64,000 nucleotides of DNA from Photobacterium profundum SS9 (lineage in GTDB: Bacteria; Pseudomonadota; Gammaproteobacteria; Enterobacterales; Vibrionaceae), in NCBI RefSeq assembly GCF_000196255.1, contig NC_006370.1, forward strand, positions 1 to 64,000, in the 5' to 3' direction. Positions 28,830-62,548 of this stretch are shown piece by piece. The notes under the pieces are model-generated. The model was not told the DNA's origin and did no database searches. It was given only the letters and a program-made list of their open reading frames with translations. The position numbers and the translations under genes are program-made. Each line of letters opens with the position of its first letter. Position 1 is the first letter of the stretch.

Positions 28830-29111
28830 TTATTTGTTGTCTTGGTAAAAGTCGAGCATGCTGCCAGCCAGATCATCAAGGTTAATTGAGACCTTCCCTG
28901 CATTTAGCATTGCTTTCATTTCAGCCACTTTATTCATATCGACATCACTGGTTTTATCCATTGATTCTTTTGCCGACTGTAGCGATTTTAACTCACTGCT
29001 TAGCTCAACCTGCGCGACATTTGAAGTGCTAGGTTTTGCTGTTTTGTTAGTCACTTCCGGTGGTAAAGCCATCGGCTGTGAATGCGATATTTTTCCAATC
29101 ATAGGGTTCAC
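28830..29111 (-). CDS. flgM: Anti-sigma28 factor FlgM (lateral)
   Basis: 93 residues. The C-terminal half (VELSSELKSLQSAKESMDKT through AEMKAMLNAGKVSINLDDLAGSMLDFYQ) has the FlgM pattern of short helices ending in the sigma-binding region. It would hold LafS inactive until it is secreted through the finished hook. It is separated from flgA by a 264-bp palindromic element and followed by flgN. Confidence 0.88.
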   Translation of the reverse strand: MNPMIGKISHSQPMALPPEVTNKTAKPSTSNVAQVELSSELKSLQSAKESMDKTSDVDMNKVAEMKAMLNAGKVSINLDDLAGSMLDFYQDNK

Positions 29112-29198
29112 ATAAAACAGTAGTTGCGGTTATAGAGATAAGAGCGACCAGTGATAGGAACTCTTAAATTATTTTTCATTGTACGAAGAGGGGGAAAT

Positions 29199-29462
29199 AT
29201 ACCCAAACCACCTCAAGATGCGAGATTCAGAGCTTCCTCTGGGAACTCAATTCGAACGAAATGTGTGTAGGAATGGTATTCCCTTTCAAACACATTTTGT
29301 GAAGAAATGATTTTCCAGAGACGCTCCCAAAGGGCGAGTTTCATTGGCTTTTATTCTGTGTTAGCCATTATTTAAATAGAACCACTATTCACTCAAATGG
29401 CTGCCTTGACTAAAAGCCAATGAATTCTCGCTGAACTCTGCATTTTGAGGTGGTTTGGGTAT
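29199..29462. repeat. Structured intergenic element, copy A (MITE-like, multi-hairpin)
   Basis: A 264-bp element with ends ATACCCAAACCACCTCAAG (from 29199) and its near-perfect complement (to 29462), a terminal stem of about 23 bp. Inside are two arms: CTCTGG (29237-29242)/CCAGAG (29315-29320) with AAATGTGT (29259-29266)/ACACATTT (29290-29297); and TTCATTGGCTTTTA (29340-29353)/TAAAAGCCAATGAA (29411-29424) with AGCCATT (29363-29369)/AATGGCT (29396-29402). The conserved GGGCGAG pairs with CTCGC. Copy B at 61010 has the same fold with different bases. It separates flgA from flgM. No ORF is inside. Confidence 0.85.
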
Positions 29463-29469
29463 ACTAGCA

Positions 29470-30231
29470 TCAAAAGTTGGTTCGGACTTTTTGAGGACCC
29501 ACAATGATGGCATAAATTTCTTTTTGGGAAGACAGATTACGGACTCGAATCGAATCACCTTTCACGCCTGACTCCAAGGCTACCCCTTTCATTGTTGCAT
29601 TCATTTTGCCAAATTTAGCCTCAATAAGCACTCCATCATTACGTTGCACGAGTTTCGGCTGTTCGACCATTCTTGGGCTAATGATTTTACCTGCAACAAT
29701 CTTTCGTCGGCTCGTTAGTCCGGTCAGCGCTTGTTTTGAGGTGAAATACCCGTGGCGTAAATATGCCACATTACTACGCTTCATACTGAGCATTAGTGGG
29801 GTGATCTCTTGGTGACGATTTAAGGTCATTTTCGCTACAACTAACTGCCGATAAATCGCCACCTCGGCTTTTGCTCGGGCTTTCCAATAAGTAGGTTTCT
29901 GGCATTCCAATGTGATGGTTAATCGCCCTGCAGGTTGTTGTGGATCGCTCAAGGATTGACTAACCGGAGTATCACAAGCGGGAATATCGGATAGCGGCTG
30001 CAAGGTTATTTTGTAATCTTGGCTACCTAATGTTGCGGCATAACGACGAACATTTTTTTTCAGGTAACGCTTAACCGCGCGTTCGGTCTTGGCGGTTGCT
30101 TCGGTGACTTGCTCGATGTGGTTGGTGGCAGCTTGCACTGTAGACGTGAGGAAACCGCCGCCCATGATTAAGCTTGCAATGAGTACTATTTCCGATCGGA
30201 AGTGACACTTCCGCTTTATTGTTGGCCGCAC
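29470..30231 (-). CDS. flgA: Flagellar P-ring assembly chaperone FlgA (lateral)
   Basis: 253 residues. An N-terminal signal sequence (about 13-34, ending VQAA) directs it to the periplasm. The C-terminal SAF-type domain includes LNRHQEITPLMLSMKRSNVAYL, LTGLTSRRKIVAGKIISPRMVEQPKLVQRNDGV (in part) and VRVRNLSSQKEIYAIIVGP-like ending (DSIRVRNLSSQKEIYAIIVG). It assists P-ring assembly by FlgI. It is transcribed divergently from flgB and its 3' end abuts the structured element at 29199-29462. Confidence 0.92.
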   Translation of the reverse strand: MRPTIKRKCHFRSEIVLIASLIMGGGFLTSTVQAATNHIEQVTEATAKTERAVKRYLKKNVRRYAATLGSQDYKITLQPLSDIPACDTPVSQSLSDPQQPAGRLTITLECQKPTYWKARAKAEVAIYRQLVVAKMTLNRHQEITPLMLSMKRSNVAYLRHGYFTSKQALTGLTSRRKIVAGKIISPRMVEQPKLVQRNDGVLIEAKFGKMNATMKGVALESGVKGDSIRVRNLSSQKEIYAIIVGPQKVRTNF

Positions 30232-58014: not shown

Positions 58015-58128
58015 TCTCGATGCTTATCTGATTGCCAACTGTTAGCTTAACGGTTGGTAATCTTCTTGCCTTAATCTTCTCTTTTATTCTTGTATCCTTT
58101 TATCTCTCTCGTTATTATGCCGTTTCCT

Positions 58129-58243
58129 TTGGGGAGTAGCCTCTCGATCTATCGAGATAATCGTCAACATACTTGAAGCAAAATCTTCATGGCGATTATG
58201 ACTCACACTAATCCTACTTTAGTGAGTTTGGCGAGACCATTGG
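58129..58243 (+). ncRNA. yybP-ykoY manganese riboswitch
   Basis: The leader has the conserved blocks of the yybP-ykoY aptamer: GGGGAGTAGCC (58131-58141), a hairpin CTCGATCTATCGAG (58143-58156), TCGTCAACATACTTG (58161-58175) and TTTGGCGAGACCATTGG (58227-58243). This class senses Mn2+ and turns on exporters. Downstream, GGGGTGGGG (58259-58267) can partly pair with the CCTCGCCCC just before the start, a possible expression platform. The gap 58015-58321 holds nothing else. Confidence 0.9.
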
Positions 58244-59998: not shown

Positions 59999-60064
59999 TC
60001 TGTCCCTTCATAATCTAATTGTCTTGGTAACGGTGCTGTTATCGCTAAGTAAGTGAAGCTTGAT

Positions 60065-61006
60065 ATGGAATTAGAAGAAGTCTACCGCCGTGATTTAAAT
60101 TTATTGGTGGCATTGAAGGTATTACTTGATGAATGCAGCGTCAGCCGGGCGGCTATACGGTTGAACTTGAGTCAATCGGCGATGAGTCGGGTTTTAGGTC
60201 GCCTACGTGATTTATTGGCTGATCCGCTATTTACTCGGCAAGGGCAGCATTTGATTCCGACACAACGTGCATTAGAAATAAATGAATCATTAGATGATCC
60301 CTTGGAAGCACTGCGTATTTTACTTACACCAAGTGACTTTCGACCAGAGTTGTGCGATCAACGGTTTGTTATCGCGACCACCGATTATGCGATGCAAACC
60401 ATTTTGCCTTTTGCCTTACCGCGTATTTATGAAGAAGCCCCCAATATTTCATTAAAATTTGAGCCGTTGCAGCATGATCATTTACTTACTCAGCTCACAA
60501 CAGACGGGTGCGATATGGCAATATGTCGCCCAACCAGTATCGATACTTCATTATGTCGAGATCATCTTGGCTTAGTGAGTGTTTTTTGCTTGCTTTCAAG
60601 AAACCACCCAATGGCTGATAAAGATCTTACCCTTGATGATTATCTGTCGTTTCCTCATGCAATGATTGCGATAAGCGATGGGGTGAAAGCGTTAATTGAT
60701 GAAGCATTACGTGGCTACCCCGAGCGGAAAATGGCCTTACGTGCATCGCATTTAGAAGCCGCCCTAGCGATAGTGGATAAGATGCCACTGATCATTACGG
60801 TGCCTGCTGATTTAGCGTATTTAGTTGCAGATAAATATGATGTCGTCGTGAAGTCATTACCCTTTGAATTTGAGCCGTTTGATTATTCACTTTTATGGCA
60901 TCCACGTTGTGAACATTCGGCCTCTCAGGTGTGGTTGCGGAATCTAATAAAGGAAGAATGCGGCCGCCTTATTGGTCAGCGCATTCGCGATATGGGACTA
61001 GCATGA
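60065..61006 (+). CDS. LysR-type transcriptional regulator
   Basis: 313 residues from the ATG at 60065 (a GTG at 60053 adds four). The N-terminal winged helix (RDLNLLVALKVLLDECSVSRAAIRLNLSQSAMSRVLGRLRDLLADPLFTR, in part) is the LysR DNA-binding domain. The C-terminal half is a periplasmic-binding-like effector domain. The effector and targets are unknown; the nearby acuI runs in the opposite direction 400 bases away. It is closest in style to the NodD/LeuO/NahR branch. Element copy B begins three bases after its stop. Confidence 0.85.
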   Translation: MELEEVYRRDLNLLVALKVLLDECSVSRAAIRLNLSQSAMSRVLGRLRDLLADPLFTRQGQHLIPTQRALEINESLDDPLEALRILLTPSDFRPELCDQRFVIATTDYAMQTILPFALPRIYEEAPNISLKFEPLQHDHLLTQLTTDGCDMAICRPTSIDTSLCRDHLGLVSVFCLLSRNHPMADKDLTLDDYLSFPHAMIAISDGVKALIDEALRGYPERKMALRASHLEAALAIVDKMPLIITVPADLAYLVADKYDVVVKSLPFEFEPFDYSLLWHPRCEHSASQVWLRNLIKEECGRLIGQRIRDMGLA

Positions 61007-61009
61007 GTG

Positions 61010-61274
61010 ATACCAATTCCATTAATTATCTGACCATTCAGAATACCACTGGGAGTCGAGTTCAAGGATAGTGTTTGATAGAAGAGTGGTTCTCTTTTGA
61101 AATCGCTAGACACAGAAGTTGGCTTCCAGTGGTGTTCCCTTTGGGCGAGTTTAAAATACTTTTATCCTGCGTTAATAAATTTCAATTTAGAGCCACTAGA
61201 TCCTCAATTTATCTCCTTGCCTAAAAGCATTTTAACTCTCGCTGAACTGATTAGATAATTAATGGATTTGGTAT
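61010..61274. repeat. Structured intergenic element, copy B
   Basis: 265 bp. Ends ATACCAATTCCATTAATTAT (from 61010) and the complement ending GGATTTGGTAT at 61274 pair at 24 of 27 positions. Internal helices: CCACTGG (61046-61052)/CCAGTGG (61126-61132), AAGAG (61082-61086)/CTCTT (61092-61096), TTTAAAATACTTTTA (61150-61164)/TAAAAGCATTTTAA (61222-61235), ATAAATT (61175-61181)/AATTTAT (61206-61212). The GGGCGAG and CTCGCTGAACT blocks and AGAGCCACTA loop are shared with copy A (29199-29462); most stem sequence is not. It fills most of 61007-61411. Confidence 0.85.
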
Positions 61275-61321
61275 GTTCAATGAGGGGCTTGTTATTTTTT
61301 ATCTTGTATCGATAAAAAAAG

Positions 61322-61411: not shown

Positions 61412-62392
61412 TTACAGTTTAATAACTACACGACCCGTTATCTGACCGTTGGTGATGTCTTCTGCGCACTCGGCTACTTCTTCTAAACTTACTTCGCGAC
61501 AAGCTTGTTGATAGTAGCTTGCTGGCAATAGTTCAGTCAGCTTCTTCCATGCTTGTTGGCGTTTTTCGAATGGGCAAGATACAGAGTCAACACCTTGTAG
61601 TCTTACATTTCGTAGAATGAATGGCATAACAGTTGTAGGCAGGTCAAAACCACCGGCTAGGCCGCACGCAGCAACAGCTCCGTTATAGTCCATTTGTGCC
61701 AGTACTTTAGTGAGCACTTTGCTGCCTACAGTATCCACAGCACCTGCCCATAATTGCTTTTCTAGCGGGCGTGCTGGTTCTTCAAACTCGCTGCGTTCAA
61801 TTATGCGGCTTGCACCAAGCTTTTTTAGCAATGGTCCATTTACTTCGCTTCGTCCAGTAACTGCTGCTACTTGATAGCCAAGTTGAGCGAGTAGAGTTAC
61901 AGCAACAGAGCCCACACCACCACTTGCACCTGTGACGACAACTTCACCCGACTCAGGTGTTACGCCTGCATCAATAAGTGCCTGCACACATAGCATTGAT
62001 GTTAGACCAGCAGTACCAATCATCATTGCTTGTTTACCATCAAGATTTTCAGGTAGTGGTACTAGCCAATCAGCGTTAAGGCGTGCTTTTTCTGCCATGC
62101 CGCCCCAATGTCCTTCACCAACTCCCCAGCCTGTTAGCACAACAGCGTCACCAACTTGGTAGCGATCATCGCTTGATTCGAGTACTCGACCTGTTAAATC
62201 GATACCTGGAACCATTGGGAATTGACGAACAATTCGACCTTTGCCCGTAATCGCTAGACCATCTTTGTAGTTTAATGAAGAGTAATCTACATCGATTAAT
62301 ACATCACCTTCAGGCAGCTCAGATTCATCAACTTGACGAATGCCTGCAATAGTTTTTTTCTCTTCTTGATCAAGAACAAGTGCCTTAAACAT
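61412..62392 (-). CDS. acuI: Acryloyl-CoA reductase AcuI/YhdH
   Basis: 326 residues from the ATG at 62392 (MFKALVLDQEEKKTIAGIRQ), eight bases after GGAG. A longer reading to 62491 lacks family match. It is a zinc-independent medium-chain dehydrogenase/reductase. The nucleotide-binding motif GASGGVGSVAVTLLAQLG is near residue 155. It reduces acryloyl-CoA to propionyl-CoA with NADPH, which detoxifies acrylate and matters in DMSP-using marine bacteria. Confidence 0.92.
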   Translation of the reverse strand: MFKALVLDQEEKKTIAGIRQVDESELPEGDVLIDVDYSSLNYKDGLAITGKGRIVRQFPMVPGIDLTGRVLESSDDRYQVGDAVVLTGWGVGEGHWGGMAEKARLNADWLVPLPENLDGKQAMMIGTAGLTSMLCVQALIDAGVTPESGEVVVTGASGGVGSVAVTLLAQLGYQVAAVTGRSEVNGPLLKKLGASRIIERSEFEEPARPLEKQLWAGAVDTVGSKVLTKVLAQMDYNGAVAACGLAGGFDLPTTVMPFILRNVRLQGVDSVSCPFEKRQQAWKKLTELLPASYYQQACREVSLEEVAECAEDITNGQITGRVVIKL

Positions 62393-62548
62393 AGGTGTGC
62401 TCCGAGTATTAATGAAAGGGGGCGTTGAATATGTGCAGAGTGTAGCTTTGATATAACTATGAATGAAATGAAACATTGTCATTTTATACATGCTTTTTTT
62501 GCATAGATTGGTATTTAGTACTCAATAGTGTGTTTTATATTTATAAAA

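Follow-up and report, generated by a model that had tools for sequence, protein, structure and literature searches.

The two copies, A and B, of an intergenic element in Photobacterium profundum SS9 represent two subfamilies of one non-autonomous mobile element. Elements of this family have inserted into the genome, have reached a high copy number, share one branched fold and show paired changes in all nine helices of that fold. As a whole, the observations are best explained, with moderate confidence, by an old and widespread MITE family of about 264 bp, in which DNA hairpin arms would act as a signal for a transposase. The conserved form is the fold, which has been upheld by covariation while most of the paired letters changed. 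On limited statistical support, the fold seems to matter for the multiplication of the element rather than at the individual site.

The window (the whole stretch of DNA that was analysed) comprises bases 1-64000 of a contig of 4,085,304 bp, in a genome of 6,403,280 bp. Direct reading of the sequence placed both copies at the positions given in a preliminary description of this DNA: copy A (264 bp) at 29199-29462 and copy B (265 bp) at 61010-61274, both intergenic. Copy A lies between flgM (28830-29111, minus strand), which is adjoined by flgN, and flgA (29470-30231, minus strand). Copy B begins 4 bases past the stop codon of a gene for a LysR-type regulator (60053-61006, plus strand) and is faced from downstream by a zinc-dependent alcohol-dehydrogenase-like gene (61412-62491, minus strand). 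The copies are 58% identical when aligned, and as expected of MITEs they contain no ORF of 80 aa or more, and thus no transposase gene, and have terminal inverted repeats. In copy A, the element proper (TACCC...GGGTA; 29200-29461, plus strand) is enclosed by a TA on the left (29198-29199) and on the right (29462-29463). The two sides of its outer stem, the terminal inverted repeats, span 29198-29230 and 29431-29463 (33 nt, 85% complementary). Within it follow the left hairpin arm (29230-29326; consensus helices 2-5), a central mini-hairpin CCC AAA GGG (29326-29334) and the right hairpin arm (29333-29432; consensus helices 6-9), all given for the plus strand. In copy B, the element proper (TACC...GGTA; 61011-61273, plus strand) lies between TGA (61008-61010) and TGT (61274-61276). 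The sides of its outer stem are found at 61010-61036 and 61248-61274 (27 nt, 89% complementary) and the consensus helices place its left and right arms at 61041-61137 and 61144-61243, again on the plus strand.

A comparison with related genomes revealed the empty sites. At the position of copy A, where TA-element-TA stands in the window, two relatives (G015 and G009) show just one TA between the flanks. For copy B, the empty site in G015 reads GAGTGATCAATG and the window TGA-element-TGT, which amounts to a 3-bp duplication with one base changed; the B element is also absent between matching flanks in G009 and G028, at a resolution short of the single base. The flanks of the other copies in the genome are in line with these sites. 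Copies with A-type ends (ATACCC...GGGTAT) are flanked by T and A in 94 of 98 cases, which corresponds to a duplicated TA, and those with B-type ends (ATACCA...TGGTAT) have an identical base on either side in 24 of 25 cases and an exact duplication of TTA or TAA in 18 of the 25. The target-site duplication expected of MITEs is thus apparent from both the empty sites and the flank statistics, the two duplicates of copy B itself differing by one base. The A type inserts at TA, of which 2 bp are duplicated, and in other genera often at CTAG; the B type inserts at TNA and duplicates 3 bp. This difference in duplication length hints at two mobilising enzymes or modes, and suggests more than one transposase. 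In a Thiotrichaceae bin, two elements stand in tandem only two bases apart (L327, 6596-7125), an arrangement that would result from insertion of one at the TA next to the other.

The family is much bigger than the two copies first described. A covariance model built from 15 own-genome copies (R1) gave at least 150 matches in the genome. A DNA search with copy A, in which the best 40 of 259 candidates were scored, returned 40 full-length matches of 71-100% identity, with one match of 67% and two partial ones additionally among the matches listed. The search with copy B returned 20 full copies at 93-100% and shorter deletion forms, as well as an intermediate copy at 77% (L056); one locus that was left unoriented (L024) was dropped. 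The empty sites, the high copy number and the terminal inverted repeats together identify a MITE-like mobile family, as had been suspected. The length is close to fixed: of the 147 own-genome copies extracted that measure 140 bp or more, a length of exactly 264 bp was counted in 75, of exactly 265 bp in 22 and of 280 bp in 10. One subfamily (L196-L206), at 280-281 bp, exceeds the main one by about 16 bp. In end-to-end miniatures (about 50-125 bp; L128-L147) the outer stem has been kept and both arms lost, and two copies have been interrupted by other insertion sequences (L125, 688-2012, and L139, 1039-3073), which we take to be IS1595-like and IS66-like. Moreover, one copy is a chimera (L054, C2:2813968-2814232; 82% identical to B), with the ends and left arm of the B type and a right arm of the main A-type subfamily (fam1); here an entire hairpin arm was swapped in one step.

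The fold itself is highly stable. Copy A folded as DNA reaches -69.3 kcal/mol (z -13.6) and copy B folded as RNA -99.3 kcal/mol (z -9.6), in both cases against dinucleotide-preserving shuffles. In the consensus, the terminal inverted repeats form the outer stem, which encloses a left and a right arm with a CCCnnnGGG mini-hairpin at the centre between them. The stems named in the preliminary description are real and covary, both among the 15 own-genome copies, where 45 of the 82 consensus pairs have kept pairing with both sides changed, and in an alignment of 30 sequences from 20 genomes (82 consensus pairs, 2458 cells). In this larger alignment, named beforehand as the comparison on which the proposal hung, 64 of the 82 pairs have changed on both sides. 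The cells pair in 95.4% of cases versus 72.9% after shuffling, 528 of them are double-changed versus a shuffle mean of 139, and the covariation score of 0.619 (0.183 when shuffled) was reached in none of 500 shuffles. When the partners were slid by 1-3 columns merely 31-43% of the cells paired. Because the 30 rows were fitted to the model from the own-genome copies, and include 7 of the 15 sequences behind it, the alignment leans toward structure; nevertheless, the slid and shuffled controls are far off. Double changes are present in every one of the nine helices, including 10 of the 16 pairs of the outer stem. The earlier contrast with 'just a shared transposon end' was right by half: the outermost helix is the transposon end, and it covaries too.

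The covariance-model search that had been proposed for the genome and its relatives found the family in both, and further out in the class and the phylum. With R1 at E 0.001, matches were obtained in 39 of 60 near genomes (12 of 25 genera). R2, a second model that was built from the 30 sequences, had matches in 89 of the 369 genomes surveyed across the class at E 1e-6 (71 of 272 genera) and, across the phylum, in 57 of 398 at E 1e-8 (33 of 213 genera), the latter including genomes of four families outside the class. In these figures the own genome is counted in each of the three surveys and a few others recur, and the strict filters applied to surveys of more than 40 genomes lose weak matches. 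An exact motif scan of named genomes listed, among others, Pseudomonas, Stutzerimonas, Acinetobacter puyangensis, Thiohalomonas, Sedimenticola, Candidatus Thiodiazotropha, Nitrosomonas and Thiotrichaceae; part of its hits are metagenome bins, and one Aquificaceae bin may be contamination. The scan yielded at least 120 stretches, of which 80 were tabulated and 67 of those searched with R2, which located elements in most of them; 57 of these R2 sites were carried forward, and 65 loci in all were compared on both strands. Elements were found in plasmid records as well (Vibrio, Photobacterium, Pseudoalteromonas, Halomonas, Azotobacter and Pseudomonas; three queries matched 4, 1 and 5 records), and only one of the listed plasmid matches (H11) falls under an annotated feature, a hypothetical protein, in a gene table that is incomplete.

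From 35 to 65% G+C the layout of the elements is unchanged. In a non-redundant set of 47 elements (mutual identity below 80%) the length is 252-271 bp with a median of 264, under a model that favours that length and permits indels, and CCC(N2-5)GGG is found at the centre of 43. Single-arm forms of 155-173 bp occur in the same genus and elsewhere, including another family of the order, and possibly form a bridge to ERIC-like elements with a single hairpin. Six such single-arm elements measure 158-162 bp and have mostly B-type ends (L097, L098, L101, L107, L108 and L110; genomes G004, G032 and G051). In distant genomes the unpaired parts of the left arm are of the type CAAGGC ... GCAGGCAATGGTNNTTCCCTTGTCAAG ... 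CAACGC and those of the right arm come close to their reverse complement, while the intervening stems of the two arms differ. Allowing at most one mismatch, CAAGGC is present in 39 of the 47 left arms and, inverted, in 41 of the right arms, and AACGC in 44 of either; the looser apical word was found in 29 left and 33 right arms. In 26 of the 47 elements the left arm compared with the inverted right arm scored above all 60 shuffles. It is thereby extremely improbable that we are dealing with the ordinary decay of several unrelated inverted-repeat MITEs, alike only through palindromic folding. Although the ends differ in sequence and in duplication length, the arm motifs, the central hairpin, the near-fixed length and the specific model scores across genera point to one family, and the covariation, the class-wide matches and the motifs shared by the 47 elements largely rule out such a mixture already.

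The arms also differ in the strand on which mismatches are tolerated. Single mismatches between Watson-Crick pairs were counted in folds made without GU pairs, so that GT and AC are treated alike. On the plus strand of the 47 elements GT and AC occur 45:10 in the left arm, 17:38 in the right arm and 20:23 in the outer stem. Read on the CAAGGC strand of each arm the mismatches number 83:27 (P 8e-8; 69:21 without the apical loops) and read on one strand throughout 62:48 (P 0.21), for elements that are related by descent and not fully independent. The asymmetry is partly a positional motif: pair spans 60-71, which border the internal loop on its outer side, account for 26 of the 45 GT cells of the left arm (with 0 AC) and for 17 of the 38 AC cells of the right arm (with 3 GT). 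At spans 84-89 the left arm has no GT preference (8:6). The opposite signs in the two arms argue against one full-length RNA, or one functional strand throughout the element. Most simply, each arm would be read as a hairpin formed by the strand coming in from the end on its side.

A structured RNA was one of two alternatives offered at the outset, the other being a DNA-hairpin element, and the latter is the better one. Indeed, that the elements encode a full-length structured RNA on one strand, such as a non-coding RNA or ribozyme that is mobilised as a small transposon, has become very improbable. Such an RNA would account for the very stable multi-helix fold, the conserved loops and the excess on the plus strand of GT (142) over AC (43) in the 30 sequences, 30 of the GT belonging to one invariant pair. 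The covariation of the helices agrees with it as well, but is predicted equally by a DNA fold. A tolerance of GU over AC throughout one strand, as a structured RNA should have, is not seen in the 47 elements, in which the two arms are opposite in sign, and certain distant elements score nearly alike on both strands (for example L308, with 156.6 and 156.1 bits). In addition, an Rfam search of seven loci at E 0.1 gave zero matches. The sole Rfam match in the window lies elsewhere, at 58126-58229 on the plus strand, and is a manganese (yybP-ykoY) riboswitch (56.3 bits, cutoff 45).

The variation among recent copies provides an indication of where selection acts. The counts within the family were restricted to full-length copies whose length is exactly 264 or 265 bp (36 and 20, later 74 and 20). 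We relied on a pair-level recount of the 74 copies of the main subfamily, because counting by site tallies double changes twice; single changes whose product is a Watson-Crick pair (1, 1 and 4 for the three classes that follow) are omitted from the recount. States present in one copy comprise 8 double Watson-Crick changes versus 79 broken pairs, those in 2-3 copies 4 versus 35, and those in four or more copies 8 versus 16. Variants that have spread to four or more copies retain pairing more often than those confined to one copy (P 0.006 by Fisher's test; with all variants in at least two copies pooled, P 0.09), so that spreading seems to be what selection acts on. Between spread and private variants of the 20 full B copies there is no significant contrast (P 0.31). 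Since private variants mostly break pairs, individual insertions look unconstrained, which tells against the domestication that had been considered in the preliminary description. The observations agree, as modest evidence, with a constraint that is lost after insertion and acts on the lineages that are still spreading.

Covariation could in principle arise unselected, if mutation itself maintains the palindromes through template switching or conversion between the sides of a hairpin, together with the exchange of arms. We consider this doubtful as the main source. The chimera described above demonstrates the exchange of a whole arm in a single event, one of 15 elements examined in another genome (G181) combines the common ends with other arm stems, and the 8 double Watson-Crick changes even among single copies allow for some copying between arms. 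However, upkeep of this kind should erase internal loops and mismatches, but these are shared across the class. Moreover, 79 of the 87 private changes stay unpaired, and the opposite GT strand preference of the arms is left unexplained. It is unlikely, too, that the elements persist because the near arm folds in RNA transcribed from either flank and blocks read-through or recruits an RNase, so that copies that fold are tolerated. In support of such a bidirectional shield, the GT-tolerant strand of each arm is the one transcribed inwards from the nearer flank, none of the 67 own-genome loci with genes called on both sides falls within an ORF of at least 80 aa (by a simple ORF caller), and transcripts of MITEs that affect neighbouring mRNAs are on record (PMC2229807, in its accessible part). 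Yet tolerance would select at the resident site, where the private variants mostly break pairs, and among the flanking gene pairs the convergent ones are not in excess (14, against 42 tandem and 11 divergent).

With respect to the favoured reading, in which the arms serve mobilisation by a transposase, we searched for an autonomous partner that shares the ends of the elements. The A-type end pattern has 431 sites in the own genome, about 100 of which were listed, and no autonomous partner was found in the 20 regions examined; 11 of these contain miniatures (13 in total), and the remaining copies have mostly been truncated or have lost arms. The 58 sites of the B-type end pattern (up to 3 mismatches) in the own genome likewise led to no autonomous partner, and solitary B-type ends in six regions (L118-L123) remained unpaired within 4-5 kb. 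The two apparent insertion sequences with element ends (L125 and L139) were rejected as partners, being the interrupted copies mentioned above. A BLAST search with element ends from the named genomes over the loci from L230 onwards gave neighbouring elements, pairs lacking a recognisable transposase-like ORF, and one form of 724 bp with an insertion. This form (L346, 4901-5624) consists of element ends, part of a left arm and, inside, several hundred bases of other DNA; it holds no ORF of transposase size. Among the ORFs between three neighbouring pairs of elements no transposase was recognised by eye.

In the genome G181 (2.96 Mb in one contig), all 44 perfect copies of a 21-bp end belong to the 22 elements; tolerating 2 mismatches adds no further end site and tolerating 3 adds two solitary ones, and 14 of the 15 elements examined are nearly identical. 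The one that differs (L431/L432, C1:1140525-1140784) has the common 21-bp ends and different arm stems. As all the perfect ends lie within elements and nearly all the elements examined are alike, this represents a recent burst for which no partner with shared ends is visible. A partner that has only a few terminal bases in common would be missed by searches of this type. All 15 elements examined sit between C-TA and TA-G, and such CTAG-type targets are a point of likeness to IS630, for which CTAG is a target.

Within the accessible parts of the papers cited here, several known systems resemble the family. Bacterial MITEs include short TA-flanked palindromes with stable stem-loops (PMC10969869, PMC6382973, PMC2229807), their autonomous partners are often unknown, and for most bacterial repeats matching IS ends had not been sought or not been found according to a 2007 review (PMC2229807). 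The closest likeness is to ERIC (IRU, RU-1 or MITEEc1) and MITEPlu5, palindromic non-coding repeats of Gammaproteobacteria with ends TATAC... and a duplicated TA; ERIC-like (RU-1-like) repeats have been noted in Vibrio (PMC2759123). The 27-bp end of the A type (fam1) agrees with ERIC at 19 of 27 bp, a score that 31 of 100,000 TATAC-preserving shuffles attained, and R2 placed its own two ends exactly on those of an E. coli ERIC (11 bits, E 0.003 in a 688-base search). The match is confined to the ends and does not extend to the arms. The E. coli copy of ERIC is 127 bp long with one main, central hairpin, whereas the elements described here have a median of 264 bp with two arms and a mini-hairpin; the duplicated TA and ERIC-like ends are found in the A type only, the B type having other ends and a 3-bp duplication.

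According to a 2018 paper, which implicates IS630 in one ERIC-like repeat, the CCC-type ends of MITEPlu5, an ERIC-like MITE of Photorhabdus with TA duplication, are shared with IS630 transposons (PMC6267812, accessible part). The IS630/Tc1-mariner elements with CCC-type ends (ISPlu3, ISPlu8 and ISPlu19) and their MITEs likewise duplicate TA and have CCC near the end, as far as the same text is accessible; our family differs in that it lacks a transposase gene and an end-sharing partner was not found. From the ERIC-like A-type ends, taken together with those of MITEPlu5, mobilisation in trans by an IS630-type enzyme appears most likely for the A type, which shows the TA duplication, with the arms probably providing a further, structural signal. 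Mobilisation of this kind is less certain for the B type, given its 3-bp duplication.

Other families are less close. The Correia/NEMIS, RUP and other TA-flanked MITEs share terminal inverted repeats, TA ends, stem-loops and a mostly intergenic location, but their contiguous terminal repeats measure 4-24 bp and their sizes about 100-200 bp, and a fold kept by covariation across genera is not reported for them in the accessible part of the review (PMC2229807). A Pseudomonas MITE duplicates the 4 nt CTAG or YTAA (PMC3189936, accessible part), and hairpin MITEs have been described from Thiomargarita (PMC4853749, likewise). In the literature on bacterial MITEs, as far as accessible and with subscription papers mostly outside its coverage, we found no account of the present fold or range. 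Folded single-strand hairpins are mobility signals in the REPIN-RAYT system and in the attC sites of integrons. To our knowledge a target duplication is not expected in these, whereas the present family has target duplications of 2 and 3 bp.

The way in which a transposase might recognise the family can be pictured as follows. The two arms would be extruded from the DNA as putative hairpins and would be read in the same sense from each end, on the top strand at the left and on the bottom strand at the right. They may then act as a recognition or assembly signal for a transposase provided in trans, most likely of the IS630/Tc1-mariner kind, perhaps with the help of a host DNA-bending protein. 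The outer stem would need only self-complementarity and the right few starting bases, because of which it could change wholesale between subfamilies. A more general form of this proposal, which we put forward tentatively, is that these gene-less elements are recognised throughout the phylum by their shape, with arms and outer stem forming a cruciform for a single-copy, trans-acting transposase or host factor. Fold and length would in that case be kept while nearly all paired letters turn over, the inverted repeats included, and the gene for the transposase need not be flanked by matching ends.

MITEs are usually described as sequence families inside one genus. Unexpectedly, a single fold and length are retained here across a phylum, with inverted repeats that turn over freely and arms that carry a signature on opposite strands. 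The family is united by its fold in many Proteobacteria and displays a covariation like that of RNA, yet there are signs that DNA is the functional form, and this serves as a warning that covariation by itself is no proof of RNA. A covariance model detects such elements where sequence searches fail. If the fold is indeed a mobility signal, transposon ends may be recognisable by shape, which would bear on the spread of ERIC-like repeats.
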